Assembly: GCA_026182355.1 (NCBI GenBank)
Contig: JAPFBL010000370.1
Span: 124,001-188,000 of the forward strand
From: Hermatobates lingyangjiaoensis
Lineage: Eukaryota; Arthropoda; Insecta; Hemiptera; Hermatobatidae
Direction of reading: 5' to 3'
Length of the DNA: 64,000 nucleotides
In this document: one piece after another, positions 6,889-61,466 of the stretch
Position numbering within the stretch: the stretch's first letter is position 1
How the letters are laid out: each line of letters starts with the position of its first letter
The notes under the pieces: generated by a model
What the model was told of the DNA's origin: nothing
Database searches by the model: none
The model's input: only the letters and a program-made list of their open reading frames with translations
Made by a program: the position numbers and the translations under genes

Positions 6889-8486
6889 AAAAATCAGGCT
6901 TACCACCCTAACTCTTCCTGATCTCATTTCACGTTATATCTAAAAATCAGGCTTGCCATCCTAACTCTTCCCGAGCTCATTTCACTTCATATCTAAAAAT
7001 CAGGCTTGCCACCCTAACTCTTCCCGATCTCATTTCACTTCATATCTAAAAATCAGGCTTACCACCCTAACTCTTCTTCATCTCATTTCACTTCATATCT
7101 ACAAATCAGGCTTACCATCCTAACTCTTCCCGAGCTCATTTCACTTCATATCTAAAAATCAGGCTTGCCACCCTAACTCTTCTTCATCTCATTTCACTTC
7201 ATATCTAAAAATCAGGCTTGCCACCCTAACTCTTCTTCATCTCATTTCACTTCATATCTACAAATCAGGCTTGCCACCCTAACTCTTCCTCATCTCATTT
7301 CACTTCATATCTAAAAATCAGGCTTACCACCCTAACTCTTCCTCATCTCATTTCACTTCATATCTACAAATCAGGCTTACCACCCTAACTCTTCTTCATC
7401 TCATTTCACTTCATATCTACAAATCAGGCTTACCACCCTAACTCTTCTTCATCTCATTTCACTTCATATCTACAAATCAGGCTTACCACCCTAACTCTTC
7501 TTCATCTCATTTCACTTCATATCTACAAATCAGGCTTACCACCCTAACTCTTCTTCATCTCATTTCACTTCATATCTACAAATCAGGCTTACCACCCTAA
7601 CTCTTCCTCATCTCATTTCACTTCATATCTAAAAATCAGGCTTACCACCCTAACTCTTCCTCATCTCATTTCACTTCATATCTACAAATCAGGCTTGCCA
7701 CCCTAACTCTTCTTCATCTCATTTCACTTCATATCTACAAATCAGGCTTGCCACCCTAACTCTTCTTCATCTCATTTCACTTCATATCTACAAATCAGGC
7801 TTACCACCCTAACTCTTCCTCATCTCATTTCACTTCATATCTACAAATCAGGCTTGCCACCCTAACTCTTCTTCATCTCATTTCACTTCATATCTACAAA
7901 TCAGGCTTGCCACCCTAACTCTTCTTCATCTCATTTCACTTCATATCTACAAATCAGGCTTACCACCCTAACTCTTCTTCATCTCATTTCACTTCATATC
8001 TACAAATCAGGCTTACCACCCTAACTCTTCTTCATCTCATTTCACTTCATATCTACAAATCAGGCTTACCACCCTAACTCTTCTTCATCTCATTTCACTT
8101 CATATCTACAAATCAGGCTTACCACCCTAACTCTTCTTCATCTCATTTCACTTCATATCTACAAATCAGGCTTACCACCCTAACTCTTCTTCATCTCATT
8201 TCACTTCATATCTACAAATCAGGCTTACCACCCTAACTCTTCTTCATCTCATTTCACTTCATATCTACAAATCAGGCTTACCACCCTAACTCTTCTTCAT
8301 CTCATTTCACTTCATATCTACAAATCAGGCTACCACCCTAACTCTTCTTCATCTCATTTCACTTCATATCTACAAATCAGGCTTACCACCCTAACACTTC
8401 CTCATCTCATTTCACTTCATATCTAAAAATCAGGCTTACCATCCTAACTCTTCCCGATCTCATTTCACTTCATATCTAAAAATCGA
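6889..8486. repeat. 53-bp satellite, about 30 copies
   Basis: The monomer contains ATCTACAAATCAGGCTTACC, ACCCTAACTCTTCTTCATCT and CATTTCACTTCAT. Variants fall at a few sites: AAAAAT or ACAAAT, GCC or ACC, and TTCTTC, TTCCTC or TTCCCG. Edge copies carry the AAAAAT/CCCGATCT type and central copies are almost identical, the usual mark of unequal exchange. One copy near 8328 has lost a T. No dyad symmetry or spacer variation suggests anything but a satellite. Confidence 0.98.
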
Positions 8487-9540: not shown

Positions 9541-9938
9541 CAGAGGTCGGCAACCTTTAACACTAAAAGAGCCATTTGAACCCTGTTTCCACTGAGAGCC
9601 GCAAATTCTTTTTGACATCTAAAATGGGGAAAAAAGCATTTATTAGAAAGTAAAAAATAAACATAAACGTATTAGTGTTTGACCACCCTTTGAAAGAAGG
9701 GCTATAAAGTGTTGCTTATGAAATCGACAAAGTGCTACAGAGAGTACAAAGTGTTACTCTCGTTAGAGGTGAAAGCAAATGAATCTGCCCAAGCATCATA
9801 TAACGATCTATTTTCCTCAAATATTTTCCTTTTCTTAGATTTCTCCATATCTGGTCTTGTTGGGGGTTGAAAGTTGAGATGGCGTTTTGGCGGGAATACC
9901 GGCTTTCGCGAATATGACGTTTATTTTGAGCTACAAAA
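9541..9938. mobile_element. hAT-1 non-autonomous element, copy 1 (truncated)
   Basis: It starts CAGAGGTCGGCAACCTTTAA and follows the 11340-11942 element for about 390 bases with scattered differences. It stops at CTACAAAAAACAAG, where a family B foldback takes over. On the minus strand (about 9740-9940) it keeps the open reading piece beginning FVAQNKRHIRESRYSRQN, the same as in the other copy. The sixteen or so bases before the left end are also shared with the other copy. Confidence 0.8.
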
Positions 9939-10083
9939 AACAAGACTAAGATCTTTCAACCGTAACAAGCCGTCTTAGTCAGAGTCAAAAACCCAACTCT
10001 TAGTTGGGATGGGATCTTAGTCTTGTTTTCCCATTTCTTATTGTGGTTTGATCATTGATTGTTGTTTCACGTGTTTATGTGAA

Positions 10084-10096
<13 letters not shown>
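9936..10096. repeat. foldback family B, asymmetrical copy
   Basis: The left arm is cut at ACAAGACTAAGATCTTTCAA, joined to the hAT copy. The right arm lacks the GACGAAGACC core but keeps GATCTTAGTCTTG, TTCTTATTGTGGTTTGATCA and the outer GTTTCACGTGTTTATGTGAA, ending in (TA)n. A deletion has therefore removed the right-arm ribozyme-like core. Confidence 0.85.
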
Positions 10097-10125
<29 letters not shown>

Positions 10126-10127
10126 CA

Positions 10128-10316
10128 AACACTTTTTCTTCTTCTTGGAATTTGGTCTGGGTTAATATACGGAATCACCTTTTTGCCAACGTTTCAGGGC
10201 TTATAGTTATAGCCCTGAGGATGTATTAAAATAAAGACGAAACTTTGGCAAAAAGGTGATTACGTATATTAACCCTGACCAAATTCCAAGAAGTAGAAAA
10301 AGTGTTTGTTAGTAAT
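10128..10316. repeat. foldback family D palindrome
   Basis: The arms run from ACAAACACTTTTTC through GGAATTTGGTC and CCTTTTTGCCAACGTTTC to the centre near 10205, then back. The right arm has an extra block, GATGTATTAAAATAAAGAC, within the ribozyme-like core that the left arm lacks. TA repeats abut both sides (10090-10125 and 10340-10378). A single family D arm lies at 35900-35975 on the minus strand. Confidence 0.88.
10212..10249 (+). ncRNA. hammerhead-like motif, family D
   Basis: GCC (10212-10214) pairs with GGC (10247-10249) as stem I. CTGAGGA lies at 10215-10221 and GAA at 10239-10241, followed by ACTTT where the best copies have ACGTY. The sequence between the cores (TGTATTAAAATAAAGAC) pairs poorly, so stem II is weak or decayed. 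Confidence 0.35.
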
Positions 10317-10347
10317 TTGTGGTCAAGAAAACTGTACGGTATATATA

Positions 10348-10381
<34 letters not shown>

Positions 10382-10409
10382 ACTAATAACTTCTCGACCG
10401 TGTGACAGA

Positions 10410-10958
10410 TATACAACTAAAAAATGATCGATCGGGATGCGGTCAGTTTCTTCCACTTTTTAATTCAAACTCTCATTGCCGACGTTTCGATTTTATTCAA
10501 AATCTTTTTCATAGGCCTACAAACAGAGGAAAAACTAGAATTTTAATACGTACATTTTTAAAACACAAACAAAAGAAGTACACTATGAAAATTAAATACA
10601 ATCTTGAGTATTAGGATAACAATGATAGAATAATAAAAAAGAGAAAAAGATGGAGTCTAACTATAAAAACAATAAAAACTATAAAAACTGTAAAAAAAAA
10701 CTTTGTTTTTATAGTTAGACTCCATCTTTTTCTCTTTTTTATTATTCTGTCATTGTTATCCTAATACTCAAGATTGTATTTAATTTTCATAGTGTACTTC
10801 TTTTGTTTGTGTTTTAAAAATGTACGTATTAAAATTCTTGTTTTTCCTCTGTTTGTAGGCCTATGAAAAAGATTTTGAATAAAATCGAAACGTCGACAAT
10901 GAGAGTTTGAATTAAAAAGTGGAAGAAACTGACCGCATCCCGATCAATCATTTTTTAG

Positions 10959-10966
<8 letters not shown>
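10410..10966. repeat. foldback family F palindrome, about 0.55 kb
   Basis: The arms of about 230 bases pair almost completely, from ACTAAAAAATGATCGATCGG at the left to its complement near 10960, around a spacer at 10640-10700. Each arm contains a hairpin GATTTT-GAAT-AAAATC followed by GAAACGTC. The related but distinct copy at 57170-57489 has GGTTTT/AAAACC at the same place. TA repeats flank both sides. Confidence 0.93.
10858..10900 (+). ncRNA. hammerhead-like motif, family F (variant core)
   Basis: The GATTTT/AAAATC hairpin (10871-10886) is followed by GAA, the self-complementary ACGT (10890-10893) and C. The 5' core reads CCTATGAAAAA rather than CTGANGA, so the conserved half is changed. 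The hairpin covaries with the 57400 copy (A-T there becomes G-C), which argues that the fold has mattered. Confidence 0.35.
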
Positions 10967-11008
<42 letters not shown>

Positions 11009-12851: not shown

Positions 12852-13038
12852 CAATAGAAAAAATGCTCTGAGGCCTTTCAATTTATGTTATCAGAGAGAA
12901 AACAAAGTAAGAACTAAAGGAGACAACATAAAAAGTATGTACAAAGAAGGTGACGAAGGTTCTTAGATCCTTAGTTCTTACTTTGTTTGCTCTCTGATGA
13001 TTTAAATTGAAAGGCCTCAGAGCATTTTTTCTATTGAA
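12852..13038. repeat. palindromic repeat, about 0.19 kb
   Basis: The arms pair AATAGAAAAAATGCTCTGAG through CCTTTCAATTTA, AGAGAGAAAACAAAGTAAGA and ACTAA with the complement ending at 13038, around a spacer near 12925-12975. No CTGANGA core is visible in the arms, so it is not grouped with the hammerhead-like families. From 13040 to 13345 I see no other feature. Confidence 0.88.
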
Positions 13039-13348
13039 GCTAGTATAATATATTGTGGAATAGGTTGAAGATAAAGTAGGTTTAAAAGATACAGAAGTAG
13101 AAAGGAACCAAGAAGGGGGCACAAGTAACCAAGTAGCAAGGGGCAAGGATTTGACCTCGAGAACTTTAAACCTAACCTCTGCTACATGTGTATAACCGAT
13201 CGACATGTTTAAACGACTAATTCATTCATTGAGTCGTGACAGGACAATCTAAAACTCATTCATATTATTAATTAAAAAAAAACTAATTGCTTGGTATCAA
13301 ACTAATGAAAGCCAACCTTTCAACGAATTTGATTCGCAAATTAATATA

Positions 13349-13548
13349 TAAAAAAGATTTCACATAAACACGTGAAATAACAATCAATGATCAAACGACA
13401 ATAAGAAATGGGAAAACAAGACTAACATCTTTCAACCGTAACAAGCGGTCTTCATCAGAGTCAGTCGGGCTTTGACTCTGACGAAGACTGCTTGTTACGG
13501 TTGAAAAGATCTTAGTCTTGTTTTCCCATTTCTTATTGTCGTTTGTTA
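13349..13548. repeat. foldback family B palindrome
   Basis: The left arm has the outer AAAAAGATTTCACATAAACA and CGTGAAATAACAATCAATGA, then the AATAAGAAATGGG and ATCTTTCAACCG blocks. The right arm mirrors the inner blocks and ends near TTCTTATTGTCGTTTGTTAA. The right-arm core CTGACGA (13478-13484) is followed by a hairpin and GAAAAGATCT, with one extra A relative to the best copies. Confidence 0.9.
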
Positions 13549-13789
13549 ATAAATTAATATATAAATATATCGAAAATGTAATAAATGATATAAAATAGAA
13601 ATTAACAAATAATCTTTTAAAATCTAAATATTTTTTTAAAAAAAATTAATATATTTAGTTTAAAATATATACATAATTTTAATTTTAATTTTACTGGTTT
13701 TTAAATTATTAAAAATATATTGATTCTGCTTTGAGAGTCCCTAAATTTCCCCCTAATACTGTTTCCCTCAGAGTGACTTTTAAAAGCAT

Positions 13790-16165: not shown

Positions 16166-16356
16166 AGGTTCGGAATCGAAGAAGAGTAACACATAAAGTA
16201 AAGAATTACACTTAGTCACAGACACTTTTTGAAAATTTGACACCCTTTGTCTTTTCTCCTCAAAACGGATTTTCCAAATATTTGATTTAGTAACTGTGTT
16301 TCTTTAATCTGTGTGTTACTCTTCTTCGATTTTGAACTCGTATTGTGTCTAGTTTT
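16166..16356. repeat. foldback family C palindrome
   Basis: The arms pair from GTTCGGAATCGAAGAAGAGT through AACACA at the left to TGTGTTACTCTTCTTCGATT and TTGAAC at the right. The centre holds the diverged motif TTTCTCCTCAAAACGGATTT and TCC, a decayed CTCCTGAAGACGGAT core. The arms match those around 600-890. Confidence 0.8.
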
Positions 16357-16429: not shown

Positions 16430-16500
16430 TCTCAACGCGAGTACTTCAAACTTCTTCCTGATGACGACGGATGTCGAAATATTGAAGTAAGTTCTGTAGT
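16430..16500. repeat. hammerhead-bearing segment, family G
   Basis: A single-arm piece sits right after a (TA)n run (16380-16406). It contains GTACTTCAAACTTCTTC and the core at 16454-16487, and is followed at 16530-16572 by an eroded family B end and a new TA run. Confidence 0.6.
16454..16487 (+). ncRNA. hammerhead-like motif, family G (canonical CTGATGA)
   Basis: CTTC 16454-16457 pairs with GAAG 16484-16487 (stem I). CTGATGA lies at 16458-16464, then one C, then stem II GAC 16466-16468 with GTC 16473-16475 around GGAT. GAA follows at 16476-16478, then the self-complementary ATAT (stem III), with T16483 at the cleavage site. All conserved type-I hammerhead positions are met except the extra base before stem II. 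If that C pairs instead with G12, stem II gains a pair but the core loses a base. Confidence 0.55.
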
Positions 16501-16874: not shown

Positions 16875-16938
<64 letters not shown>

Positions 16939-16940
<2 letters not shown>

Positions 16941-17176
16941 ATGATCAAACCACAATAAGAAATGGGAAATCAAGACTAAGATCTTTCAACCGTAACAAGC
17001 GGTCTTCGTCAGAGTCAAAAACCCAACTGAGTTCAAAAAACCCAGAGTCAGTTGGGTTTTTGACTCTGACGAAGACCGCTTGTTACGGTTGAAAGATCTT
17101 AGTCTTGATTTCCCATTTCTTATTGTGGTTTGATCATTGATTGTTGTTTCACGTGTTTATGTGAAATCTTTTTATA
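16939..17176. repeat. foldback family B, best preserved palindrome
   Basis: The left arm starts TCAATGATCAAACCACAATA immediately after a 58-base (TA)n run. The right arm ends TTGTGGTTTGATCATTGA, then the outer GTTTCACGTGTTTATGTGAA and ATC, and runs into another (TA)n. The arms are nearly identical over about 80 bases around a centre near 17035. Each holds a complete hammerhead-like motif, minus strand at 16974-17016 and plus strand at 17062-17104. Confidence 0.95.
17062..17104 (+). ncRNA. hammerhead-like motif, family B (best example)
   Basis: Stem I is GACT 17062-17065 with AGTC 17101-17104. The core is CTGACGA 17066-17072, with one unpaired A at 17073. Stem II is GACCG 17074-17078 with CGGTT 17086-17090 (one G-U). 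GAA lies at 17091-17093. The self-complementary AGATCT (17094-17099) forms a 3-bp stem III with no loop, which would need dimer pairing. T17100 is the expected cleavage nucleotide. The same fold recurs at 37782-37824 and 41773-41815. Confidence 0.6.
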
Positions 17177-18087: not shown

Positions 18088-18125
18088 GCCCTGAAGATGA
18101 AATACACTTATGTCGAAACGTCGGC
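18088..18125 (+). ncRNA. hammerhead-like motif, family E
   Basis: GCC 18088-18090 pairs with GGC 18123-18125. CTGAAGA is at 18091-18097. A short helix, G18099-C18114, A-T, an A-G mismatch, A-T, T-A, can form. GAA lies at 18115-18117, ACGT at 18118-18121 and C18122 is the preferred cleavage base. Stem II is the weak part. It shares GCC...GAAACGTCGGCAAAA with families D and F. Confidence 0.45.
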
Positions 18126-18189
18126 AAAAGGACTAGTTTCAAATCATTAGACCTCAACCCTCAAAAAAATTATATCATATATATAATAT

Positions 18190-18389
18190 AAAAAGATTTC
18201 ACATAAACACGTGAAATAACAATCAATGATCAAACCACAATAAGAAATGGGAAAACAAGACTAAGATCTTTCAACCGTAACAAGCGGTCTTCGTCAGAGT
18301 CAAAAACCCTACTGAGGGGTTGTTTGCCTAAAACAAGATCTTAGTCTTGTTTTCCCATTTCTTATTGTGGTTTGATCATTGATATATAA

Positions 18390-18390
<1 letters not shown>
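18190..18390. repeat. foldback family B, right arm core deleted
   Basis: The left arm is complete (AAAAAGATTTCACATAAACA, CAATGATCAAACCACAATAA, then the minus-strand motif near 18266-18302). The right arm goes straight from a short spacer (GAGGGGTTGTTTGCC) to GATCTTAGTCTTGTTTTCCC, missing the GACGAAGACC core. (TA)n follows at 18370-18428. Confidence 0.9.
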
Positions 18391-18430
<40 letters not shown>

Positions 18431-25194: not shown

Positions 25195-27840
25195 ATTGAG
25201 AACCACAGATATATACCAAAAGTTACTATACTATTGGTATAGTTACTATACTATTGGTGCTTCTTGTCATAGAACAGAATCACTGATATATACCAAAAGT
25301 TATACCAGATTATAATATTAATTGCTTCTTGTCATAGGGCAAAGTCACTGATCAGCACCAAAAGTTATACCAGAATACTATTGATTGTTAACTTGTCATA
25401 GGACAGAATCATTGATCTACACGTAAAGTTATACCAGAATATACTATTAGTTACTTCTTGTCACAGGACAGAATCACTGATCTACACCAAAAGTTTTACC
25501 ACAATATACTATTGATTAATCCTTGTCGTAGGACCAGAACCACTGATGCATACCAAAAGTTATACCAGAATATACTATTAATTGCGCCTTGTTATAGAAT
25601 AGAATCAGTGATCTATACCAAAAGTTATATCAGAATGTACTATTGATTGTAACTTGTCATAGGACAGAATCATTGATCTACACGTAAAGTTATACCAGAA
25701 TATACTATTAGTTACTTCTTGTCACAGGACAGAATCACTGATCTACACCAAAAGTTTTACCACAATATACTATTGATTACTCCTTGTCATAGGACAGAAC
25801 CACTGATCTATACCAAAAGTTTTACCAGAATATACTATTAATTACTTCTTGTTATAGAACAGAATCACTGATCTATCACCAAAAGTTTTACGAATATACT
25901 TATTCTTGTAAGGACATCACTATCTCACAAAAGTTTACCGAATATACTATTGTTACTTCTTGTACAGGACAGAATCACTGATCTACACCAAAAGTTATTA
26001 CCAGAATATACTATTAGTTACTTCTTGTCACAGGACAGAATCACTGATCTACACCAAAAGTTTTACCACAATATACTATTGGTGCTTCTTGTCATAGAAC
26101 AGAATCACTGATATATACCAAAAGTTATACCAGAATATACTATTAATTACTCCTTGTTATAGAATAGAATCACTGAACTATACCAAAAGTTATACCAGAA
26201 TATACTATTAATTACTCCTTGTCATAGGACAGAATCACTGATCTACACCAAAAGTTTTACCAGAATATACTATTAGTTACTTCTTGTTACAGGACAGAAT
26301 CACTGATCTACACCAAAAGTTTTACCAGAATATACTATTAGTTACTTCTTGTTACAGGACAGAATCACTGATCTACACCAAAAGTTTTACCAGAATATAC
26401 TATTGATTAATCCTTGTCATAGGACAGAACCACTGATCTACACCAAAAGTTATACCAGAATATACTATTAATTACGCCTTGTTATAGGACAGAATCACTG
26501 ATCTAACCAAAAGTTATACCAGAATATACTATTGATTTTACTTGTCATAGGACAGAATCATGATCTACACCAAAAGTTATACCAGAATATACTATTAGTT
26601 ACTTCTTGTCACAGGACAGAATCACTGATCTACACCAAAAGTTTTACCAAATATACTATTGATTAATCCTTGTCATAGGACAGAATCCACTGATCTACAC
26701 CAAAAGTTATACCAGAATATACTATTATTACTCTTGTTATAGGACAGAATCACTGATCTACACAAAGTTATACCAGAATATACTATTAGTTACTTCTTGT
26801 CATAGGACAGAATCACTGATCTACACCAAAAGTTATACCAGAATATACTATTGTTACTCTTGTCATAGGACAGAATCACTGATCTACACCAAAAGTTTAT
26901 ACCAGAATATACTATTGATTACTCCTTGTCATAGGACAGAATCCACTGATCTATCACCAAAAGTTATACCAGAATATACTATTGATTACTCCTTGTCATA
27001 GGACAGAACCACTGATCTATACCAAAAGTTATACCAGAATATACTATTGATTACTCCTTGTCATAGGACAGAATCACTGATCTACACCAAAAGTTATACC
27101 AGAATATACTATTGATTACTCTTGTCATAGGACAGAACCACTGATCTACACCAAAAGTTATACCAGAATATACTATTGATTACTCTTGTCATAGGACAGA
27201 ATCACTGATCTACACCAAAAGTTATACCAGAATATACTATTGATTACTCCTTGTCATAGGACAGAACCACTGATCTACACCAAAAGTTATACCAGAATAT
27301 ACTATTGATTACTCCTTGTCATAGGACAGAACCACTGATCTATACCAAAAGTTATACCAGAATATACTATTGATTACTCCTTGTCATAGGACAGAACCAC
27401 TGATCTATACCAAAAGTTATACCAGAATATACTATTGATTACTCCTTGTCATAGGACAGAATCACTGATCTACACCAAAAGTTATACCAGAATATACTAT
27501 TGATTACTCCTTGTCATAGGACAGAACCACTGATCTATACCAAAAGTTATACCAGAATATACTATTGATTACTCCTTGTCATAGGACAGAATCACTGATC
27601 TATACCAAAAGTTATACCAGAATATACTATTGATTACTCCTTGTCATATGACAGAATCATGACGAACAAAAGTTTACCAGAATATACTATTATTACTCTT
27701 GATAATGACAGAATATGATCGGACACGAAAGTTTCAGAATATACTTGATTACTCTTGTAGAGAGTAAGAACATGATCCTTACAAAATTTCGAAAACCTAT
27801 GATACCTTTCATAGGACAAACATGTCTAACCAAAAGTGGT
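25195..27840. repeat. 65-bp satellite, about 40 copies
   Basis: The monomer reads CCTTGTCATAGGACAGAATC, ACTGATCTACACCAAAAGTT, ATACCAGAATATACTATTGA and TTACT. Central copies (26980-27640) are almost identical. Copies near 25880-25960 and 27650-27830 show many single-base deletions, unlike the substitutions elsewhere. The first copies (25195-25330) are diverged. Short open frames across it are by-products. Confidence 0.98.
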
Positions 27841-28261: not shown

Positions 28262-28498
28262 GAAAGATTTATATTATTAATATGGCAAACCGTCATACCT
28301 AGTATGATGATGTTGGAGTCGTTGGAGCGTTTTCAGACGTTGTCCATCTTCAATCGCAACTAATTAACTAACCTAACCTACAGTAGGTCAGTTAGTTAGT
28401 TGCGATTGAAGATGGACAAAGTCCGAAAGCGCTCTAACGACTCCAACATCATTGTACGAGGTATGACGGTTTGCCATATTAATAATATAAATCATATT
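28262..28498. repeat. foldback family M palindrome
   Basis: The arms pair from GATTTATATTATTAATATGG through CAAACCGTCATACC, GTTGGAGTCGTTGGAGCG and the core to a centre at about 28380 (CTACAGTAGGTCAGTTAG). Related copies lie at 54960-55125 (palindrome) and 59205-59290 (single arm). The shared word is CCGTCATACC. Between 27840 and 28260 I see only AT-rich DNA. Confidence 0.92.
28398..28450 (+). ncRNA. hammerhead-like motif, family M (variant core)
   Basis: GATTGAAGA, then T, stem II GGAC-AAA-GTCC, GAA, the self-complementary AGCGCT and C. The 5' core has TTGAAGA in place of CTGAAGA. In the opposite arm GTTG before and CAAC after the core can pair. Stem II and the stem III box are well formed, and only the first core base differs. 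Confidence 0.4.
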
Positions 28499-28499
28499 A

Positions 28500-29735
28500 A
28501 CCTCAGTCGTAATATGCATGCATATTAATAAATAATTAATGCATTAATAACTTAATGCATTTAATAAAGAAAGACGCTTAATCTGAAAGACGGTTACCTA
28601 TAGATTACTTTTAAACATATATACTGATTTCTTTAAACTAAAATATTAGTTTCTTTAAACTCGTTTCCTTAGTTTTAATTATTAAAAAAAATTACAATTT
28701 TTTCACATATTTATTTAAATATACAACTACGTATATGTTGCGTAACAAGCATATGTAATATGAATAATACAAACAACTTTGAGAAACATGAGTAAAGAAT
28801 GAAAGACATCGGTTCAACTTTTCACTTCGTTTCTTGATTCTGGATCATCATGGCAGTAGATCCCTCAGCCATCTTCTCTTAAGTCATCTTATGGGATTCT
28901 GGGAAGGTTTTATATGGAAAGTTCGGTATGAAAACGCCTTGTAACGATCAGTGGCTAAATTATGTATAAAAGCTATTTTTAGGTCTCTATAAAGAGTGTA
29001 GTTTGTGATATAATAAGGTGCATAGGATTTTTTTATTGTAATTTTGTATTTTATAAATGTTGGAAGGTTTTGCACAACCCCATAGTTGAAGTTTGTAACT
29101 CCAGATCAGTCGCAGTAACGTTTTATACAACAGAACTTTGTTGTGGAAAAGTGGAAATGTGTGTAAAAAAAAAAATAAAAATTAACGGTAAGTATAGAGG
29201 TCAAGAGTAGTTATAGCATTGATTTTGTCTTTATTCTAATAATGAGTCAGCAAAAGAGGATTTATTCATTTCGTTTGCGTCTGTATTTAGAGTGCTTTAT
29301 CACTGGCGTATCCTTAATCTCCAACCTATTTTTTTTTTACTCAATTGAATGAATGAAAAACTTCAAAATAAAATACGATGTTTATGAATTAGATTACTCA
29401 TTGAAAAGAGATATTGATTGTGATAATATTGTATAAACGGCGGAAAGTGTATCTCACAGAACATTGTATGTAAATAAGAAACATATATACCTTCTCTTTG
29501 TCCTACATCAGATCAAATTTATTATAGTAAACTATTTTAACATTTCACGTCAGTTAAGATTGTCCTGTAAATATTTCCATTCAGTACTTTTAAATCTTTA
29601 CCAGCTAAATTGAATATATTTCTATTTTAGTGTTTAAGAGCAAGGGAATAACGTTTATGGCTAGAAAATCAATTTATTAATTTTTAATATTAAAATATAA
29701 CAAATAATTTATTTATTATATTTTTATTATAAATA
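28500..29735. other. AT-rich stretch without supported features
   Basis: No recognisable gene, RNA or repeat. The 63-codon minus-strand frame near 28884-29075 has no familiar features. Confidence 0.5.
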
Positions 29736-30243: not shown

Positions 30244-30809
30244 CCAGCCAACGACCAACGAATATTACCATGCACAACAGTGCATGTCGTAAACAGCAGT
30301 TCCGGACCAGAGGCCCACTACTGCTAGATTCTCATCCTGCTGTTTTTTGTTGGGTCAGTAAACAATGTCAAGAATGGGGGAGTCAGACAGTAAGGGAATG
30401 TGTCGTCTTCGTGGTCGTTTGGTCTTCAGGCTTTGCATTCTCTGAGGTACTGTATACTTTTGGAGTCATGTGGTCATAATTTTAGTTTAAATAGGAAACT
30501 TTGAGGATCGTGGGATTATGAAAGATTGAGAGTAGGATTTAGTTCCCGAACAAGGAGATTTGGATGGGTGGAAAGTTTTTTGTCTTCATTACTGGCAAGT
30601 CGAGCAATGTAGGAATAGATAGATTCTAAACTCAAATCATGTTGAATATCAACATTTCTGGCGTACCATGAAGCCCTAGCTATAAGGTGGGCACATTTAT
30701 TCTGTACTATTTGGATGCATTTCTTGTTTGTGGGCGCCGCTCCAAACCAGACTGAGCATCCGTATGTCATAGTAGAACGAATGACCGCCTTATAGACAAG
30801 GTCCTCCAC
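30244..30809 (-). mobile_element. 5'-truncated Jockey/CR1-like LINE, copy 1
   Basis: This is a minus-strand insertion consisting of the end of a reverse-transcriptase ORF (30516-30809) and about 270 bases of 3' UTR with GCCAACGACCAACGAATATT and CAGTTCCGGACCAGAGGCCC. The same UTR and ORF end recur at 42890-43240. It lies between two 115-120 bp direct repeats (30129-30243 and 30810-30930). Confidence 0.85.
30516..30809 (-). pseudogene. LINE reverse transcriptase C-terminal region
   Basis: The frame encodes the segment after the RT palm in Jockey/CR1-type LINEs. It has 'VYKAVIRSTMTYGCSVWFGA' (thumb region, Y-x6-MTYG-x3-W), then IVQNKCAHLIARASWYARN, DLSLESIYSYIARLAS and the closing STHPNLLVRELNP. 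There is no endonuclease or catalytic palm because the element is cut at its 5' side. The first residues (MYVED) come from the junction. It reads to a natural stop, so the 3' end is intact. Confidence 0.85.
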
Positions 30810-30930
30810 GTACACTACTTAGGGCTGACTCGTTTCAAATTATCTTTACGTTTTATAAATTAGTGAGAAAAAAAATAAAATATATTTATTTTAAAAATAT
30901 ATATAAGTATTTTTAGGTGCCTGATACTGT
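30810..30930 (+). repeat. direct repeat flanking the LINE fragment
   Basis: GTACACTACTTAGGGCTGAC through TTATAAATTAGTGAGAAAAA to AGGTGCCTGATACTGT repeats 30129-30243 with a few changes and a small TAAAA insertion. From 30935 to 31390 nothing is recognised. Confidence 0.9.
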
Positions 30931-31394: not shown

Positions 31395-31957
31395 CATGTA
31401 TTTTAGAAGTAATTTTGATTTCAGGGTTACTCCTTTAGCTTTTTGATTATGTGACGGAAATTAGGTGGACAATCATTGGTGGCACTCCGTAATATATTTA
31501 ATCTTTATGACGACAGAAAGTCACGTGGCCATTGTCGTTTTAGTCGTCTTTGGGGGTTTGTGGGGATTACTAGTTGGGAAAGATTTTGGGCAAGTGGGTT
31601 TGGATGAGTTGAGAGTTTACTGTGGAATTTTTTGAAACAGTCTTTTGCGTAGTCGCGAACTTTAGGGGACTTTAACATCTCGGTATATGATTCAATTTGG
31701 GACGTAAAATGGGAGATGTGAGAGTTTTCTAAGTATTTTTTGGCTTGTATAGAACGAATATTTGAAGGTTTGGCAAAACCCCAAAGTTCTATGTTATAAG
31801 CCCAAGAAGGCTTCAAGATTGTGTTGTATATGTGTGGAGTCTGTCTGTTAGTGTGAGTTTTGATTTCCTGTCTAAGAGTCTTATAAGGCATTTGTAAGGT
31901 CTGTTGGTCTCTCTTCGTTTCAGTCTCTGTGTGGGTTGTCCATTCAAGTTGAACCAT
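31395..31957 (-). mobile_element. Jockey-like LINE 3' end, second family
   Basis: The 3' UTR (31395-31545, minus strand) matches 3362-3490. The adjoining ORF end (31505-31957) is a reverse-transcriptase tail different from the 30516 one. The insertion is 5'-truncated near 31957. No clear poly-A or target duplication was found. Confidence 0.8.
31505..31957 (-). pseudogene. Jockey-type reverse transcriptase C-terminal region
   Basis: 150 codons: TLRQEIKTHTNRQTPHIYNT, then ILKPSWAYNIELWGFAKPSN and IRSIQAKKYLENSHISHF, then KVRDYAKDCFKKFHSKLSTH with PNPLAQNL and a basic end RRLKRQWPRDFL. The 'Y-x-ILKP-x-W-x-Y-x-IELWG-x-A..SN' block is a hallmark of Jockey-clade LINEs just after the catalytic domain. 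Catalytic residues lie upstream and are missing. No internal stop, so it is fairly young or short-lived. Confidence 0.88.
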
Positions 31958-31959
31958 AA

Positions 31960-32700
31960 TTTTTTAAATCCCATCCAATAAAATTAAATAATTTTTCGTT
32001 ATACTATCCTTCTAAGAAACTTTTAAGAAACCTCAGTATGAATTTTCTAAATTATTTAATTCTTTTTCTCCGAAATTTAGTTTTCGAGGTTTACTCTTAA
32101 CTCTAAAATTCAATAATGGTTGTAGAGTTACCAGTTCTTGAGGTTCTGTATGTCTCAATGTTATGCTCTCATTATACTGGTGTAAGTCTTCTTTACTTTA
32201 TCTGTAGATATTGTGTTCTTCCATTCTTATAATACTTGATTTGCTTGATTGGTTTTTCACTTGAACCATTTTAATGGTAAACTATTAGGCCTAAACTCTG
32301 AAATATTTAAAGTACTTGTTAATTACAGAAGTATAATTAATTGTTATTAAGTTAATTGGCGCCCAATAACCATCGGCAAGCGATATTACAGAGCGCTAAT
32401 GGTGTTGTATTAATCAGACACCTTCATTTTAAATAAGATAAAAAACATCTTGTTTATTTTAATCCAATTTTTTATTAATATTAAGCGAAATTTTATATAA
32501 TAATCACAATATTGTAGGTAGTATTATAATATTGGGAGACAGAAAAGAAAGAAAGAAAATGTTCCAACTTTATAGATAACTTTGGTAAAAATATATTCAA
32601 TTTTAAGAAACTATATTGCTCAACTATGTTTACCGGAAAGTTTGTTTGTTTTCCAACACGCAGACTTATAAGATGGTTTTACTATTTCGTTATGTTCTAG
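31960..32700. other. stretch without supported features
   Basis: AT-rich sequence with no recognised gene or repeat. Confidence 0.5.
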
Positions 32701-32704
32701 GGGC

Positions 32705-33362
32705 GGAAATTTTAGCTTATTTATTATTGGTACCTATATTAGTAATGGGCAAGCCACATTACCTGTTGATTCCACATTACGATTTCTAAATTTTACCTAA
32801 CTCAAGTGCATTTAAAGCAGGGACCTTTAACGGGTACCTGACATCGTATAGGGTCTGGACCGACGGCTTAACGTCATCTTTACATTTAGAGTAGGGACCT
32901 TCAACAAGTACCTGACATCGTACAGGATCTGGACAGACGGCTTAACGTCCTCTCTACATTTAGAGTAGGGACCTTCAACGAGTACGTGACATCGTATAGG
33001 ATCTGTACCGACGGCTTAACGTCCTCTCTACATTTAGAGTAGGGACCTTTAACGAGTACCTGACATCGTACAGGCTTTGGACCGACGGCTTAACGTCCTC
33101 TTTACATTTAGAGTAGGGACCTTTAACGAGTATCTGACATCGTACAGGATCTGGACCGACAGCTTAACGTCCTCTTTACATTTAGATTAGGGACCTTTAA
33201 CGAGTACCTGACATCGTACAGGATCTGTACCGACGGCTTAACGTCCTCTCCGAGAGACGTCTTTCTTACATTTATTCACCTCCCATGTGAATAAACCCGA
33301 GGTGGTATTGAACCCCGGACCGACCAGTTTAGAGACAAATACATCAGAGCTAAGCTGGCCTT
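32705..33362 (-). repeat. SINE with internal 74-bp expansion (6 copies)
   Basis: The left end is the alternative SINE 3' end (AATTTTAGCTTATTTATTAT, AGCCACATTACCTGTTGATT). The right end is the head (TATTGAACCCCGGACCGACC, GAGCTAAGCTGGCC). Between them a 74-bp block, GGGACCTTTAACGAGTACCT to CTCTTTACATTTAGAGTA, is repeated six times (32820-33263). Copies vary at a few sites, so the array is not brand new. Confidence 0.92.
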
Positions 33363-34214: not shown

Positions 34215-34703
34215 GTTGATGTTGGAGTTCGTGGGTTTTGACACAAGACAAGAGTCTTTGAGTTGAGAGGGGTGTCAGTACATGTGATTATAGGCCAGTA
34301 GTTGTGGATACTAGAGCTGTGGTGTCTTAAGAGGTGAGAATAAAATCTTACAAGGCTGCCTCATCAGATAAACCAGTCTTTCTATCTAACATCTGTGAAG
34401 ATAGCATGAACAACCAGGGTCATCGTGGAAGGAACAAAGAAATCCTTAACCTATGATCACCTCTCTAATGTAACTCACACCACACTTCTATCACGCTATA
34501 AACTTATCTATTTATTTATTTTTGTTTTCTCCCGCTTAGTTAAATGTTTATACGAATTTACATACCACTTACCAATCACGTTCTTTCAAAATGATTTATA
34601 TTTACTTAACTCCTGCTTATTTCTTAGGAAAGATTCAACTAAAAACAATTACTGACGCACACCCTAGGAGTTTTTTTTTTTGCAACTTCCACTTCTTATA
34701 ACG

Positions 34704-35046
34704 ATAAAAAGATTTCACATGAACACGTGAAATAACAATCAATGATTAAACCACAATAAGAAATGGGAAAACAAGACTAAGATCTTTTCAACCGTAACAA
34801 GCGGTCTTCGTCAGAGTCAAAAACCCAACCAGAGTTAAAAGTTCGGTTTTTGATTCTGACGAAGACCGCTTGTTACGGTTGAAAAGATCTTAGCCTTGTT
34901 TTCCCATTTCTTATTGTGGTTTGGGTGGCAAAACTTGGAGGTGACAAAAGGGTAACACGTTAAATCGTCGGCCTGATTTGATCTTTGGTGTAATGGCTGG
35001 AAAGCTAAGGTGTACAGCGATCAAAACAGGTTTGATCATTGATTCC
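34704..35046. repeat. foldback family B palindrome interrupted by 107-bp insertion
   Basis: Both arms are complete, with the plus-strand core near 34855-34895 (GATTCTGACGAAGACC, CGGTTGAAAAGATCT). The right arm is split after TATTGTGGTTTG by about 107 bases (34923-35030) and resumes with GGTTTGATCATTGATT. The repeated GGTTTG at the break looks like a short target duplication. The inserted piece holds TTAAATCGTCGGCC, a SINE-like word. Confidence 0.88.
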
Positions 35047-35092
35047 TTATAACGAATGCAACAAAAAATCTGTTAACTAAAAAAACTCTAAC

Positions 35093-35205: not shown

Positions 35206-35224
35206 CGTTTAGTTACCTTAATAT

Positions 35225-35440
35225 AATATATCAACACCCAAACCACAATAAGAAATGAGAAAATTGATCTTTCAAACGAAACAAATGATCTTCGTCAGAG
35301 TCACATCCCAATTGAGAAGTTGGGATTTGACTCTGATGAAGACCATCTGTTACGGTTGAAAGGTCTTAAATTGTTTCTCATTTCTTATTGTGATTTAGAT
35401 GTTGACTACTGTTTTACAGGTTTATTATGAAATCTTGTTA
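35225..35440. repeat. foldback family B palindrome, diverged
   Basis: The arms pair ACCACAATAAGAAATGAGAA through CTTTCAAACG to the complement ending TTATTGTGATTTAGATGTTG. The core in the right arm has the canonical CTGATGA (35333-35339), then A, GACC, loop, GGTT, GAAAGGTCTT. Stem II pairs GACC with GGTT. Stem III AGGTCT needs a G-U pair. It is an older member than 16939-17176. Confidence 0.88.
35330..35370 (+). ncRNA. hammerhead-like motif, family B diverged copy
   Basis: CTGATGA 35333-35339, GACC 35341-35344 with GGTT 35354-35357, GAA 35358-35360, AGGTCT 35361-35366 and T. Stem I is reduced compared with the GACT/AGTC of the other copies, since AAAT follows the cleavage site. The core matches the canonical sequence better than the younger copies do. 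Confidence 0.4.
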
Positions 35441-35449
35441 TATAATATT

Positions 35450-37100: not shown

Positions 37101-37699
37101 ACTGAAATATATGAATAAAACCGTTTAATGGATTTTTTTTATTTTAATTTCACTAATTCTGTAATCCAAATGATTCAAAATTTTCATTTTTTTTTTCTGA
37201 AAATTTCTTAAATTCAGCTAATTTTAGCTACTGAATGAAAGCTTTTAGTTTGAATTGTAGACAATACCAAGCTTTCTGGCTATCTCCAGGGTCACACCAC
37301 CCCCTCTCACTGGCCGACCTTCCCACCATTAGGCAAAGTCATGAACCCAGGTTCAACCCACTCAGCAATAAATAACAAGTACCCCTCAAAATTATTGAGC
37401 AACTCTTTATGGTTACCTGCTAAAACAATCATAGCGTTTACCTACTCACGGCCTTCTGTCTTGTTTTAAATGCTTAATCGAAATATTTTAAAAAACTTAA
37501 TTATCTACAAAATAAACTTTACTTAATACTTTAACTTTGATAGAGATATACAAAAAAGAAACTCTCGGAACATGTCACACAGTTGATTTTATCATCACCA
37601 GAGGGCTAACAATATTAAAAAAGTATTATTCAATACAGATATCTTAAAAAACTAGTTTTTTTTAGCATTCATTGACAGAACTAAGAGCAAATAAATACA

Positions 37700-37862
37700 A
37701 GATTTTACATAATCACGTAAAATAACAATCAATGATCAAACCACAATAAGAAATGGGAAAACAAGACTCAGTTGGGTTTTTGACTCTGACGAAGACCTCT
37801 TGTTACGGTTGAAAGATCTTAGTCTTGTTTTCCCATTTTCTTATTGTGGTTTGAACATAGAA
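37700..37862. repeat. foldback family B, left-arm core deleted
   Basis: The left arm runs through CAATGATCAAACCACAATAA to GGAAAACAAGACT and skips the core. The right arm is complete with the hammerhead-like motif at 37782-37824. Confidence 0.9.
37782..37824 (+). ncRNA. hammerhead-like motif, family B
   Basis: GACT/AGTC stem I (37782-37785, 37821-37824), CTGACGA 37786-37792, GACC/GGTT stem II, GAA 37811-37813, AGATCT 37814-37819, T37820. Relative to 17062-17104 one loop base differs (CCTCTTG for CCGCTTG), which breaks the fifth stem II pair but keeps four. Confidence 0.55.
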
Positions 37863-41362: not shown

Positions 41363-41635
41363 TGATAATCAAAACTTGTTATTGATTTTCGTACTTCTCA
41401 TTCACTGTCAGTATATTGAGGGCGAATTAGGTCAATTATTATTTGGCACCCATTTTAGATAAATGCAACACATACCTTTGATTAGATTGGATGTACAAAT
41501 TATATCGATAACGTCAGTGCTTTAGAATGGAGTTTAGTTTTCTTTTATCTATACGCTAGCACCTCACTTTTAACGAACAGTTCAGATATATTACACTATG
41601 CTATATATAATATATAGTATATATATACATTAAAG

Positions 41636-41850
41636 ATTTCACATAAACAACTGCCTAATATACTAAATCAATAATCCAACCAATATAGAAATAGGAAACA
41701 GAATAAGATCTTTCAACCGTAACAAGCGGTCTTCGTCAGAGTCAAAAACCCAACTGGAAGGTTGGGTTTTTCGACTCTGACGAAGACCGCTTGTTACGGT
41801 TGAAAGATCTTAGTCTTGTTTTCCCATTTCTTATTGTGGTTTGATCATTG

Positions 41851-41853
<3 letters not shown>
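41636..41853. repeat. foldback family B palindrome in TA repeats
   Basis: The left arm is eroded at its outer end (CACATAAACAACTGCC...AATCAATAATCCAACC) but intact inside. The right arm is complete and ends TTGTGGTTTGATCATTGA before (TA)n at 41853-41882. The plus-strand motif lies at 41773-41815. Confidence 0.92.
41773..41815 (+). ncRNA. hammerhead-like motif, family B
   Basis: GACT 41773-41776 with AGTC 41812-41815, CTGACGA 41777-41783, GACCG/CGGTT stem II, GAA 41802-41804, AGATCT 41805-41810, T41811. It is identical to 17062-17104. Confidence 0.6.
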
Positions 41854-41884
<31 letters not shown>

Positions 41885-49261: not shown

Positions 49262-49478
49262 GTGAAAATTGTGACTCATTTATAATTTGGCACCCTTGGT
49301 AGTAATAGGCGAGTCACATTACCTGTTGAATTCTACATTGGGAGTACTAAATTCTGTCTAACTCAAGTGGATTTGGTGTTGGGTTCTTTAACGAGTATCT
49401 GACATCGTACAGGCTCGGAGCCGACGATTTAACGTCCCTCTCTAAGGGACGACATAATGAGATTTAGTCACCTCTACA
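49262..49478 (-). repeat. SINE with alternative 3' end, head deleted
   Basis: GTGACTCATTTATAATTTGG, GTCACATTACCTGTTGAATT and GTACAGGCTCGGAGCCGACG, ending at CACCTCTACAGG. It faces the next SINE head to head with no gap. Confidence 0.85.
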
Positions 49479-49805
49479 GGGACCTGGTTAGCTCAGTGGT
49501 TAACGTGCTCGCCTCTGAACTGATAGGACCGGGGTTCGATCCCCACCTGGCCCTCGATTTATTCATGCGGGAGGTGAATAAATCTGAGCACGTAGTCCCT
49601 CAGAGAAGGACGTTAAACCGTCGGTCCCGAGCCTGTACGATGTCAGGTACTCGTTAAAGAACCCTACTCTAAATACACTTGAGTTAGGCAAAATTTAGGG
49701 CTCCCACTGTAGAATCAATCTTCATTGTGTGGTATCACAAAGGGCCAAAGCTCGGTCTACGTATGTTCCTTTGTGGGACTACCAGTGCAATCTAACCTAA
49801 CCTAG
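49479..49805 (+). repeat. full-length tRNA-derived SINE (reference copy)
   Basis: The head GGGACCTGGTTAGCTCAGTG has a canonical A-box (TAGCTCAGTGG) and B-box (GGTTCGATCCC), as RNA polymerase III promoters require. The body contains CTCGATTTATTCATGCGGGA, TAAACCGTCGGTCCCGAGC, GTACGATGTCAGGTACTCG, TACACTTGAGTTAGGCAAAA and TGTGTGGTATCACAAAGGGC. It ends CAATCTAACCTAACCTA. It has no poly-A tail. Mobilisation would depend on a LINE partner, unknown here. Confidence 0.95.
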
Positions 49806-52604: not shown

Positions 52605-52780
52605 TCCTGTTAGCAGGAGGTTAGTTCGTAGAATCGAATCTCTCAGTCTTAAGATCGTGAATGCCGAGACTGCGGTTACCACTGAGAAAACACGCATAGG
52701 CAGAACATTGATATCACACAATGACCATTGAAATTTGGGAGTCCTAAATTTTGCCAGACACAAGTGTATTTAAGAGTAGG
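52605..52780 (-). repeat. second tRNA-like SINE head plus tail piece
   Basis: On the minus strand CTCAGTGGTAACCGCAGTCT (A-box-like) and GAGAGATTCGATTCTACGAA (B-box-like) form a head different from the main family. It is preceded on that strand by the shared tail sequence around GACTCCCAAATTTCAATGG. It may be a sister SINE family using the same tail. Confidence 0.6.
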
Positions 52781-53545
52781 GATCTTTAAAGAGTACTTAA
52801 CATCGTACAAGCTCAGGACTTATGGCTTAACATATGGATTTCAGACACGACGTAATCAGATTTTTTTCACCTGAAGCGAGAATAAATCGAGGCCCGTAAT
52901 GGGTATTGAACCCTCGACCACCAGTGCAGAGACGGACAGGCACGTTGCCACTGAGTTAACGTGGCTCCCAAAGTGATCTTTAACGAGCACGTGACATCGT
53001 ACAGGCTCAGGACTTATGGCTTAACATATGGATTTCAGACACGACGTAATCAGATTTTTTTCACCTGAAGCGAGAATAAATCGAGGCCTGTAATGGGTAT
53101 TGAACCCTGGATCTACCGGTTCAGAGACGGACAGGCACGTTACCACTGAGCTAACCTCGCCCCCAAAGGGATCTTTAACGCGCACGTGATATCGTACAGG
53201 CTCGGGACTAATGGCTTAACATTGATTTCAGACAAGACGTAATCAGATTTTTTTCACCTGAAGCAGAATAAATCGAGGCCCTAATGGTATTGAACCCTGG
53301 ACCACCAGTGCAGAGACGGACAGGCACGTTACCACTGAGCTAACCTGGCTCCCAAAGGGATCTTTAACGCGCACGTGATATCGTACAGGCTCGGGACTAA
53401 TGGCTTAATGTCTTCTCCGAGGAACGACGTGCCAAATATTTTCACCTGCTACATAAATAAATCGAGGGCCAGAGTAGATATTGAACCCTGGATCTACCAG
53501 TTCAGAGGCAAGAATGGAAACACTGGGCCTATTCGCTCTAATATG
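52780..53545 (-). repeat. tandem array of four tail-less SINE units, about 190 bp each
   Basis: Units begin near 52780, 52974, 53168 and 53357 (GATCTTTAACGNGCACGTGA). Each runs through CAGATTTTTTTCACCTGAAG and AATAAATCGAGGCC to a minus-strand head ending TAACCTGGCTCCC (or a close variant), joined to the next unit by CAAAG. The 3' tail is present only at the left end of the array. The copies differ from each other by substitutions, so the array is not very recent. Confidence 0.88.
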
Positions 53546-54700: not shown

Positions 54701-54959
54701 AAAAAAATGTTCATATTAAATATAGAACTTCTATCTATTGTTCTATAGTTAATGATTTATATCTTTTAAATTTTTTTTTTAATTATTTTGAAATTATCTC
54801 TTAGTTTTTATAGAAACACTATATTACTAAGAACAGTATTACTACATCTACTAATACTGAGAGTGCAATACAATATAACTTGTGAAAATATTTCTAGACA
54901 TATTTACTATACTATAATTAATACATGCATATTGTTAATACCACTGAGGTTAGTATGAT

Positions 54960-55128
54960 TTATATTAGAAATAGGTAAAACCGTCATACCTCGTAAAATG
55001 ATCATGGAGTTGGAGCGCTTTCGATCGCAACAAACCTACTGTAGGAAGATGGACAACGTCCGAAAGCACTCCAACGACTCCAAGATCATCTTAAGAGGTA
55101 TGACGGTTTTACCTATTTCTAAGGTAAA
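54960..55128. repeat. foldback family M palindrome, copy 2
   Basis: The arms pair TAGAAATAGGTAAAACCGTC and ATACCTCGTAAAATGATC with the complement ending ATGACGGTTTTACCTATTTC. The right arm holds GGAAGATGGACAACGTCCGA and AAGCACTCC; stem II GGAC/GTCC is intact. The left arm has lost its stem II. Between 55130 and 56500 I see no feature. Confidence 0.9.
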
Positions 55129-56664: not shown

Positions 56665-56666
56665 AT
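56624..56666. repeat. (TA)n microsatellite
   Basis: A TA run with one TATTATAT interruption, directly before a family C element. Confidence 0.95.
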
Positions 56667-56947
56667 CCACTTAAAATTAGAAAAAACGATCCAAACTGGA
56701 CGCAAAATCAGTTCACAAACGAAAAAAGCAACACACAGAGAAAGAGACACACTTACAAACTCAAATTTTCGGTTGATCCGTCTTCAGGAGAAAAGAGAGA
56801 ATGGGCGACCAAGCACGCCGGAAACAAGCGTGTTTCCGGCGTGCTTGGTCGCCCATTCTCTCTTTTCTCCTGAAGACGGATCAACCGAAAATTTGAGTTT
56901 GTAAGTGTGTCTCTCTGTGTGTTGCTTTTCATCGTTTGTGAACTGAT
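56667..56947. repeat. foldback family C palindrome in TA repeats
   Basis: A unique left end TCCACTTAAAATTAGAAAAA and ACGATCCAAACTGGACGC is followed by the palindrome. Its arms run from TCAGTTCACAAACG through ACACACTTACAAACTC and AAATTTTCGGTTGATCCGTC to TTCAGGAGAAAAGAGAGAAT, with the centre at about 56827. It ends GTGAACTGATATATA. TA repeats sit on both sides. The same structure, including the left end, is at 57532-57790. Confidence 0.95.
56867..56897 (+). ncRNA. hammerhead-like motif, family C
   Basis: CTC 56867-56869 with GAG 56895-56897 (stem I), CTGAAGA 56870-56876, C56877, then GGATCAACC with only GG/CC pairing, GAA 56887-56889, AATT 56890-56893 (stem III, self-complementary) and T56894. 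Stem II is shorter than in the 57706 copy. Confidence 0.45.

Positions 56948-57103: not shown

Positions 57104-57142
<39 letters not shown>
57104..57142. repeat. (TA)n microsatellite
   Basis: A TA run lying shortly before the family F palindrome. Confidence 0.95.
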
Positions 57143-57144
<2 letters not shown>

Positions 57145-57169
57145 AATATTGATAAAAGTATGGACCGTG

Positions 57170-57489: not shown

Positions 57490-57531
57490 TATATATATAA
57501 TATATATATATATATAATATATAATAATATT

Positions 57532-61195: not shown

Positions 61196-61466
61196 TAAAC
61201 AAAGTTAAGATGTTAGCTGCAATATAACAATGTTTTGCTTTAATGACACCTAAAACCATGTACATATAACTGACTGTCAACTCGATTCAAACTAGAAAAA
61301 CACAAAAAGCTAACGACAAATATATAAATCTAATGTAGTCCTAATCAATCGACGTCTGTAATAAGATAGATATTTATCATGCAACGTTTTTTTATTTTAT
61401 CTTTACAAGATAGCAAAAAAAAAGTCAATCAGATTTGTGACAAAAAAGAAATTTCACTTTAGAGAT

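Follow-up and report, generated by a model that had tools for sequence, protein, structure and literature searches.

Short head-to-head inverted repeats with minimal hammerhead-type motifs as probable gene-less insertions by Penelope-like machinery

The locus considered here raises two questions: whether a hammerhead-like sequence that occurs twice within a short inverted repeat is a genuine RNA motif, and what kind of element carries it. The inverted repeat (A3) spans positions 16937-17174 of the window, by which we mean the whole 64,000-nucleotide stretch of DNA analysed. It consists of two arms, 16937-17030 and 17048-17141, which are 100% complementary and are separated by a 17-nt centre; a 33-nt tail (17142-17174) is present at the right end only, and (AT)n sequences flank the element on both sides. 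A first-pass annotation had proposed a hammerhead-type order of sequence elements for the region 16974-17104, and this order is borne out on the + strand, where the family A motif (17062-17104) comprises GACT at 17062-17065, CTGACGA at 17066-17072, a stem II hairpin at 17073-17090, GAA at 17091-17093, AGATCT at 17094-17099, T17100 and AGTC at 17101-17104. A mirror copy lies in the left arm on the - strand, at 17016-16974. In both copies the order is that of a type I hammerhead in which a palindrome replaces the looped stem III, and cleavage is predicted after T17100 on the + strand and after base 16978 on the - strand. The invariants of type I hammerheads are CUGANGA .. GAA, the A15.1-U16.1 pair and H17, position N7 being left free in the core.

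The window was scanned for a pattern comprising CTGANGA, at least seven bases, GAA, a palindrome of 4, 6 or 8 bases and a base other than G. This gave 25 full-pattern matches, of which 14 have a stem I of at least three pairs and eight have at least three pairs in both stems I and II, whereas 100 dinucleotide shuffles yielded means of 1.21, 0.05 and 0.01 and maxima of 5, 1 and 1 for the three classes, respectively. The control against shuffled sequence that had been proposed earlier, run here within the window, thus comes out in favour of the motif, with 25 and 14 matches against 1.21 and 0.05 per shuffle. The 25 loci, which share the invariant type I core and order, are related copies falling into seven families (A, B, C, E, G, J and L). 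A looser pattern, CTGANGA N8-30 GAA, gave 34 matches where 8.6 are expected. Counting any GAA within the 38 bases that follow CTGANGA, a palindrome starting with A and followed by a base other than G comes after the GAA at 25 of these 34 loci, compared with 144 of the 2457 GAA triplets overall. In viral and prokaryotic contigs the exact pattern has 0 matches.

The stem III box is AGATCT in family A, AATT in B, ACGCGT or ATGCAT in C, ATAT in E and ACGT in G, the last of these being common to G and L. The earlier claim that the box is always palindromic holds at 25 loci but fails for the copies at 13458-, 6593-, 35298- and 35333+, in which the palindrome has been lost; in three family A arms (13478, 34814 and 34856), an extra A after GAA shifts the register. 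Within family C, ACGCGT in C1 (3729+) and ATGCAT in C4 (39866-) differ by two changes that keep the palindrome, both of which CpG decay would also give. The motifs of family E (16454-16487, +; CTTC, CTGATGA, C-GAC-GGAT-GTC, GAA, ATAT, T, GAAG) and family G (18088-18125, +; GCC, CTGAAGA, hairpin, GAA, ACGT, C, GGC) had been counted among the foldbacks, an assignment that has to be withdrawn: each is a single arm, and a search of the window found no inverted partner for either (cores at 16458 and 18091). The G arm is akin to element H at 10205-10320, with 77% identity over 48 nt.

It had been noted further that the two halves of stem I differ from family to family and yet match. The better fit of the halves within families than between them stands, but a proper stem I is missing from the ACGCGT family, in which the halves form one C-G pair and one G.U pair only, and the annotation itself gives four stem I pairs for five boxes. 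Since copies are related, we took one representative per family and permuted the 3' halves of stem I among the seven families. The stem I sum was 22, compared with a permuted mean of 8.3, and 22 was reached in 2 of 5040 permutations; these representatives were picked with the stem I scores already seen, those of A, B and E being the best stem I copies. The five families of the annotation alone gave 1 of 120, the smallest value possible, and addition of H, whose box (ACTT) is not palindromic, gave 4 of 40320. Over 300 random draws of representatives, p had a median of 0.0024, a 90th percentile of 0.020 and a largest value of 0.069; taking the worst copy from every family gave a sum of 11 and a p of 0.019. 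Not all copies retain stem I: in A, 6 of 10 matches have four pairs and the other 4 have one, in B three pairs occur in 5 of 7 matches, and in E the stem is kept in one of two. Scores in C are 1-2, in L 0 and in J 6. Element J (12852-13036) reads CTCT CTGATGA TTTAAATT GAA AGGCCT C AGAG in one arm and CTGATAACATAAATT in the other; in the former, stem I has 6 bp and stem III is a palindrome, but there is no room for stem II. Considering both stems together, families A and E include copies with stems I and II both formed, B has three pairs in stem I and 2-3 in stem II, stem II of G and H holds an A.G mismatch, J is without stem II and L is without stem I.

Stem II also covaries in two homologous pairs, judged by eye and on small numbers. 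Its halves are GAC/GTC in E and AAC/GTT in the related copy at 28083-, which is without stem I; in G and H, the A.G mismatch is common to both and the neighbouring pairs flip between A-U and U-A. The arms of A, the commonest family, provide a different kind of evidence. Among 17 arms, the 12 catalytic positions are changed in 1 of 172 cells, compared with 42 of 579 cells downstream (Fisher p = 2.5e-4), and when both arms of each element are collapsed the figures become 1 of 108 and 34 of 333 (p = 7.6e-4); these counts ignore insertions (the three arms with an extra A after GAA) and leave out the s13984 row together with arm parts judged non-homologous (inner A1R, A2L, A4R, A7bL and others). 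Changes elsewhere in the motif number 3 of 114 in stem I, 8 of 140 in stem II and 2 of 64 in the interior of stem III, and N7 varies in 2 of 14. Because stem I covaries between families, stem II does so within two homologous pairs and the family A core is conserved, we uphold the earlier proposal of selection on a hammerhead-type RNA; the sequence comparisons support the view that the foldback motif is real and under selection as such an RNA.

Selection on the motif need not mean cleavage. The motif could be a protein-binding or reverse-transcription signal that resembles a hammerhead and does not cut, a reading that would suit family C with its want of stem I. An Rfam search is also in keeping with it, having returned no hammerhead at E <= 1 in the window and none at E <= 10 in 17040-17130; stem III of the motif is loopless. 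The hammerhead of the anole element PAc, in the account given in PMC11167929, needs protein for its activity and is not required for insertion in vitro, where ribozyme mutants insert normally, and RNA ends at the cut were not seen. What the hammerhead does in Penelope-like elements is described as unknown in PMC7761336. We nevertheless regard a mere look-alike as unlikely, given that the letters kept are those invariant in hammerheads, that N7 is free and that stems I and II covary. In the whole window Rfam gave 30 matches, mostly to microRNA precursors (best E 4.8e-12), all below the gathering score, which we take to stem from long hairpins, not from homology, and set aside. Three matches to the motif alone were at chance level, none of them to a hammerhead, and were also discarded.

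Minimum-energy folds of the monomer contain stems I and II in A and E (by eye) and no hammerhead in B, C and G. Plain cofolding of two motif copies gave duplexes other than the hammerhead dimer in five of five families, an outcome that neither supports nor excludes such a dimer. The transcript of a whole foldback is predicted to form a hairpin of -171 kcal/mol for A3, -162 for C1 and -176 for B2, in which the motif is buried; if the ribozyme acts, it is therefore more likely to do so in transcripts that start at or inside the foldback centre.

What, then, are the elements that carry the motif? In each, one unit occurs twice, head to head; where both arms have the motif, its 5' side faces the centre and the part after the predicted cut runs outward. 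We take each foldback, very probably, to be two leader-like units, or pseudo-LTRs (pLTRs), set head to head with the motif near the 5' end of the unit. Besides A3, family A comprises A1 (9937-10095; tail right), whose right arm has an internal deletion of the 5' part of the ribozyme; A2 (13338-13565; tail left), with a 15-bp direct repeat, AAATTAATATATAAA, at 13338-13352 and 13551-13565; A4 (18179-18393; tail left), in which the match of the right arm begins at AAGATCTT; A5 (34695-35055; tail left), with a 10-bp direct repeat, CTTATAACGA, and a right arm split by an insert of ~107 bp, beyond which alone the repeat becomes visible; the divergent A6 (35221-35448; tail right); A7b (37696-37861; tail left); and A8 (41618-41864; tail left). 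The insert in A5 (34924-35030, ~107 bp) has GGTTTG on both sides and is SINE-like in size only.

Family B, with its AATT box, is represented by B1 (56666-56947; motifs at 56870+ and 56787-), which has a tail of ~41 nt on the left and (TA)n on both sides, by B2 (57531-57790; tail left), whose motifs are 57709+, with the cut predicted after T57733, and 57654-, and by B3 (62852-63089), the outer ends of which are truncated. In family C, C1 (3604-3873; ACGCGT, without stem I) has its tail on the right and a 13-bp direct repeat, AATAAATAACAAT; C2 (35074-35205), from which the ribozyme part is missing, has its tail on the left and an 11-bp direct repeat, TAACTAAAAAA; and C4 (39604-39970), with ATGCAT as the left-arm box, has its tail on the left and extra DNA within the left arm. 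Foldback D (10372-10967) has 264-nt arms, a tail of ~36 nt on the left and (TA)n on both sides, and its relative K (57137-57492; tail left) is 79-82% identical to it in BLAST pieces. In D (10409-10966) and K (57172-57492), stem II, GAA and most of stem I are kept and one core G is missing; the core of D reads GCC TATGAAAA ... GAA ACGT C GGC in the left arm, with GAC in the right. Of the two I elements, I1 (28266-28530; tail right) has a degenerate core, TTGAAGA, and an AGCGCT box in the right arm, and I2 (54911-55140; tail left) has a 13-bp direct repeat, ACTATAATTAATA. In H (10123-10340), the left arm begins at the GAA of the motif.

The inner and outer ends of the arms follow a pattern. By eye, 12 of 17 family A arms have their inner end no more than 4 nt away from TCAGTTGGG; the exceptions are A1R (through its internal deletion), A2L, A4R, A7aL and A7bL. 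The TCAGT at the family A start resembles the arthropod initiator. On the outer side, the shorter arm stops at ...ATCATTGAT in most family A copies, A1L and A2R stopping earlier. A cluster of inner ends near GAA and stem III (A1R, A4R, 13984 and the left arm of H) was considered as a product of ribozyme cutting and dropped, because it lies upstream of the cut and some of the ends are explained by palindromes or deletions. There are single arms that are truncated at the 5' end. Within family A, the two arms of one element differ on average by 0.070, compared with 0.103 between elements, which is compatible with a single source locus or RNA; A6 and A8, whose arms differ by 0.18 and 0.15, as much as strangers, are excepted.

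The most regular feature is the tail. Both outer ends of each foldback were scored against the tail of its family, the threshold being the 99th percentile of 300 random places, and a one-sided tail of 33-41 nt was found at exactly one outer end in all 17 scored foldbacks, from six families. By eye, the tail measures 33 nt in A, ~41 in B, 39 in C, 36 in D, 36 in K and 38 in I. Tail-end scores range from 34 to 82 and those of the opposite ends from 8 to 20, the random 99th percentile being 22-29; the weakest tails, of A6 (34) and A8 (36), thus remain above the best opposite end (20). If ends took tails independently at even odds, 17 of 17 would be expected once in 131,072 trials; since the D and K tail was defined on those same single copies, the count without them is 15 of 15. 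A stricter flag, set at the largest of the 300 random draws, is blank for 5 of the 17 (A6, A8, B1, B2 and D), probably because random draws fell on the tails themselves. The scored set leaves aside B3 and a B copy at 54.5 kb, with truncated outer ends, the B-like pair at 16168-16337, the single arms A7a, C3, E and G, and H and J, for which a second copy to define the tail is wanting. At the right end of H only, ~29 extra nucleotides precede (TA)n (by eye), and H may follow the one-tail rule too. Among the tails of A, B, C and K, only that of A folds better than its shuffles (z -3.8), the values for B, C and K being -1.1, 0.1 and 0.65, so that these tails give no support for a conserved stem-loop at the start site. 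The one-tail rule and the conservation of the core are the main data of this study.

Direct repeats of 10-15 bp are found at the expected place in 5 of 19 elements (A2, 15 bp; A5, 10; C1, 13; C2, 11; I2, 13); at random places, a direct repeat of at least 10 bp occurred in 5.8% of 600 draws. Six of the 19 lie in AT runs in which a repeat is unreadable (A3, A4, A8, B1, D and K), A6 has a 9-bp AT match, and seven (A1, A7b, B2, J, I1, H and C4) have no direct repeat longer than 7 bp, which makes 14 of 19 elements that lack a usable repeat. Although (TA)n adjoins several foldbacks, the whole window is itself 64-77% AT (23-36% GC in 2-kb steps) and contains many inverted repeats and satellites. Satellite arrays are located at 6891-8484 (53 bp), 25247-27698 (65 bp), 2396-2813 (30 bp) and 63597-64000 (40 bp). 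Further inverted and tandem repeats, at 49330-49715, 52778-53507, 60991-62185 and 32809-33249, have in common the text that surrounds TACAGG..GG(G)ACC(G)A as a core; in one copy there is tRNA-like text (GGTTAGCTCAGTGG..GGTTCGATCCCC), and ARAGORN called no tRNA in the window.

Short inverted repeats without an ORF, with direct repeats at 5 of 19 sites, might also be DNA transposons of the MITE or foldback type, with the motif lying by chance in their terminal inverted repeats. This is highly improbable in our judgement: the equal inverted termini and fixed-length duplications of such transposons are not what we find, the outer ends differing in length by 33-41 nt in all 17 scored elements and the direct repeats being variable, from 10 to 15 bp. 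Moreover, a conserved RNA motif adjoins the centre, and some single arms are truncated at the 5' side.

The features are instead reminiscent of Penelope elements. In the copies described in PMC3846280, the marks of Penelope insertions are head-to-head inverted pLTRs, palindromes at the junctions and an optional 31-bp tail on one of them, with target-site duplications (8-10 bp) present in only some of the copies; the text of PMC8969392 mentions inverted pLTRs, along with short 3' extensions, among the peculiarities seen in individual copies. For anole PAc, PMC11167929 reports that both strands are cut and extended at AT-rich cut sites and that reverse transcription starts at two internal sites bounding a 30-40 bp tail. 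The foldbacks have the inverted, head-to-head pLTRs, and a tail of this kind on one of the two in 17 of 17 scored cases. A link to Penelope-like elements, which the first-pass annotation had suggested, is therefore supported, on grounds other than those given there, namely the head-to-head units, the one-sided tail and the direct repeats at some sites. We conclude that the foldbacks are most probably short ORF-less insertions made by Penelope-like machinery, bearing minimal type I hammerhead motifs and probably primed at two ends, and we assign this reading a probability of about 0.78. They have the look of gene-less passengers, or small by-products, of Penelope-type retroelements.

Protein-level searches bear on the word gene-less. 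No reverse transcriptase or GIY-YIG match was obtained for the 10 ORFs submitted to Pfam, out of 80 of at least 70 aa, and the single ORF of at least 150 aa in the window lies outside the foldbacks, the 152-aa ORF having no homologue in a protein search. As no such frame was found in the part searched, the foldbacks are described here as ORF-less derivatives and not as autonomous Penelope elements. Two ORF pieces elsewhere, at 30516-30818 and 31505-31963 (-), have the text KLSTHPN in common. They resemble ends of a jockey-type reverse transcriptase; neither has a fitting Pfam match, and 31505-31963 has no homologue in a protein search.

The foldbacks could be dead-end 5' pieces of autonomous Penelope elements and not a satellite lineage, if reverse transcription of a full-length RNA had begun at the upstream tail site instead of the downstream one. 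Such a reading modifies the explanation preferred above while remaining compatible with its mechanism, and we hold it to be possible though not probable. Solo pLTRs are known debris of such elements according to PMC3846280, and an ATG occurs in the motif region of both arms of D and of the right arm only of K, which is like the start of the anole ORF as given in PMC11167929. The 94-nt majority arm of family A, however, has no ATG, the part of the window searched contains no coding copy, and by eye the frame of D stops after 15 codons (right arm) and that of K after 6.

For insertion by Penelope-like machinery, we infer a sequence of steps from the anatomy of the foldbacks and the published biochemistry of Penelope elements. 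A short RNA with a defined 5' end (in family A, TCAGTTGGG) would be made, and a Penelope reverse transcriptase/GIY-YIG enzyme would cut an AT-rich site on both strands, the two cuts being staggered by roughly 10-15 nt. Each cut end would then prime reverse transcription inside an RNA, from a distal start in one case and a proximal start, 33-41 nt away, in the other, with the result that exactly one end has a tail. Finally, the two cDNAs would reach the RNA 5' ends and be joined there, giving a foldback. In our view, two-ended priming would account for the tail rule better than snap-back self-priming, because the latter alone would copy the tail to both ends.

The left arm of A7b may retain a trace of the ribozyme. 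By eye, its match starts immediately 3' of the predicted cut (AGTC...), and its junction with the right arm's 5' end shows an overlap of at most one base; in BLAST, the match begins 3 nt earlier with one mismatch, and the TCAG of the right arm also accounts for these bases. This arm, one of 17, is at most suggestive of a cut RNA having been used as a template. A hammerhead with a palindromic stem III would lend itself to working as a dimer between two transcripts. Dimer action of minimal Penelope hammerheads is reportedly the subject of Lunse et al. 2017, to judge by the title, and it is also described for Penelope-like minimal hammerheads in PMC7761336. One may go further and propose that the palindromic stem III is a template-pairing signal through which two element RNAs are held together close to their 5' ends, which would supply an enzyme acting at both ends of a cut target with two facing templates at all times; we think this doubtful. 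If it were true, the dimer ribozyme, the one-tail rule and the head-to-head product would be parts of one two-RNA insertion mechanism, and cleavage would trim one leader, as A7b may show, its left arm starting at the predicted cut. Independently of this proposal, these tiny natural insertions, in which the motif core is conserved amid drifting surroundings and the two ends use different tail sites, provide a natural record for examining whether two-ended priming, dimer templates and cleavage in vivo occur.

Among the known systems close to the foldbacks are elements of the Penelope/Poseidon kind. With bdelloid Pen (as described in PMC3846280) and anole PAc (as described in PMC11167929), the foldbacks share head-to-head inverted pLTRs, a tail at one end and a 5' minimal type I hammerhead motif, and perhaps also the AT-rich surroundings and the short duplications in some copies. 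They differ in consisting of two pLTRs only, with no ORF, and the usual hammerhead of families A, B and C is without ATG, N7 being C, A or G. Among titles and opening lines of abstracts in the open-licence literature, which is not proof of absence, we encountered no ORF-less paired-pLTR foldbacks with hammerheads. According to the accounts in PMC7761336 and PMC6155905, the minimal type I hammerheads of Penelope-like elements lack helix III or tertiary contacts, and with the minimal Penelope hammerheads (Cervera and de la Pena 2014; Lunse et al. 2017) the foldback motif shares the type I order and a very short or missing stem III loop. What may set the foldbacks apart from these minimal dimer-type hammerheads is a palindromic stem III box that differs between most families and is found in inverted units.

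Metazoan retrozymes, as presented in PMC7229834, resemble the foldbacks in being short and non-coding with a type I hammerhead, and they co-occur with Penelope elements. Movement of the foldbacks as retrozymes, via hammerhead-cut circular RNA, is nonetheless very unlikely: the same source describes retrozymes as direct tandem repeats, whereas foldback units are inverted pairs, set head to head with a one-sided tail, and 0 of the 34 CTGANGA..GAA loci overlap tandem-repeat rows. The Terminons, in the description given in PMC7761336, have conserved Penelope-like hammerheads in common with the foldbacks; they are giant elements attached to telomeric repeats, whereas the foldbacks measure ~0.1-0.6 kb and are interspersed in the window.
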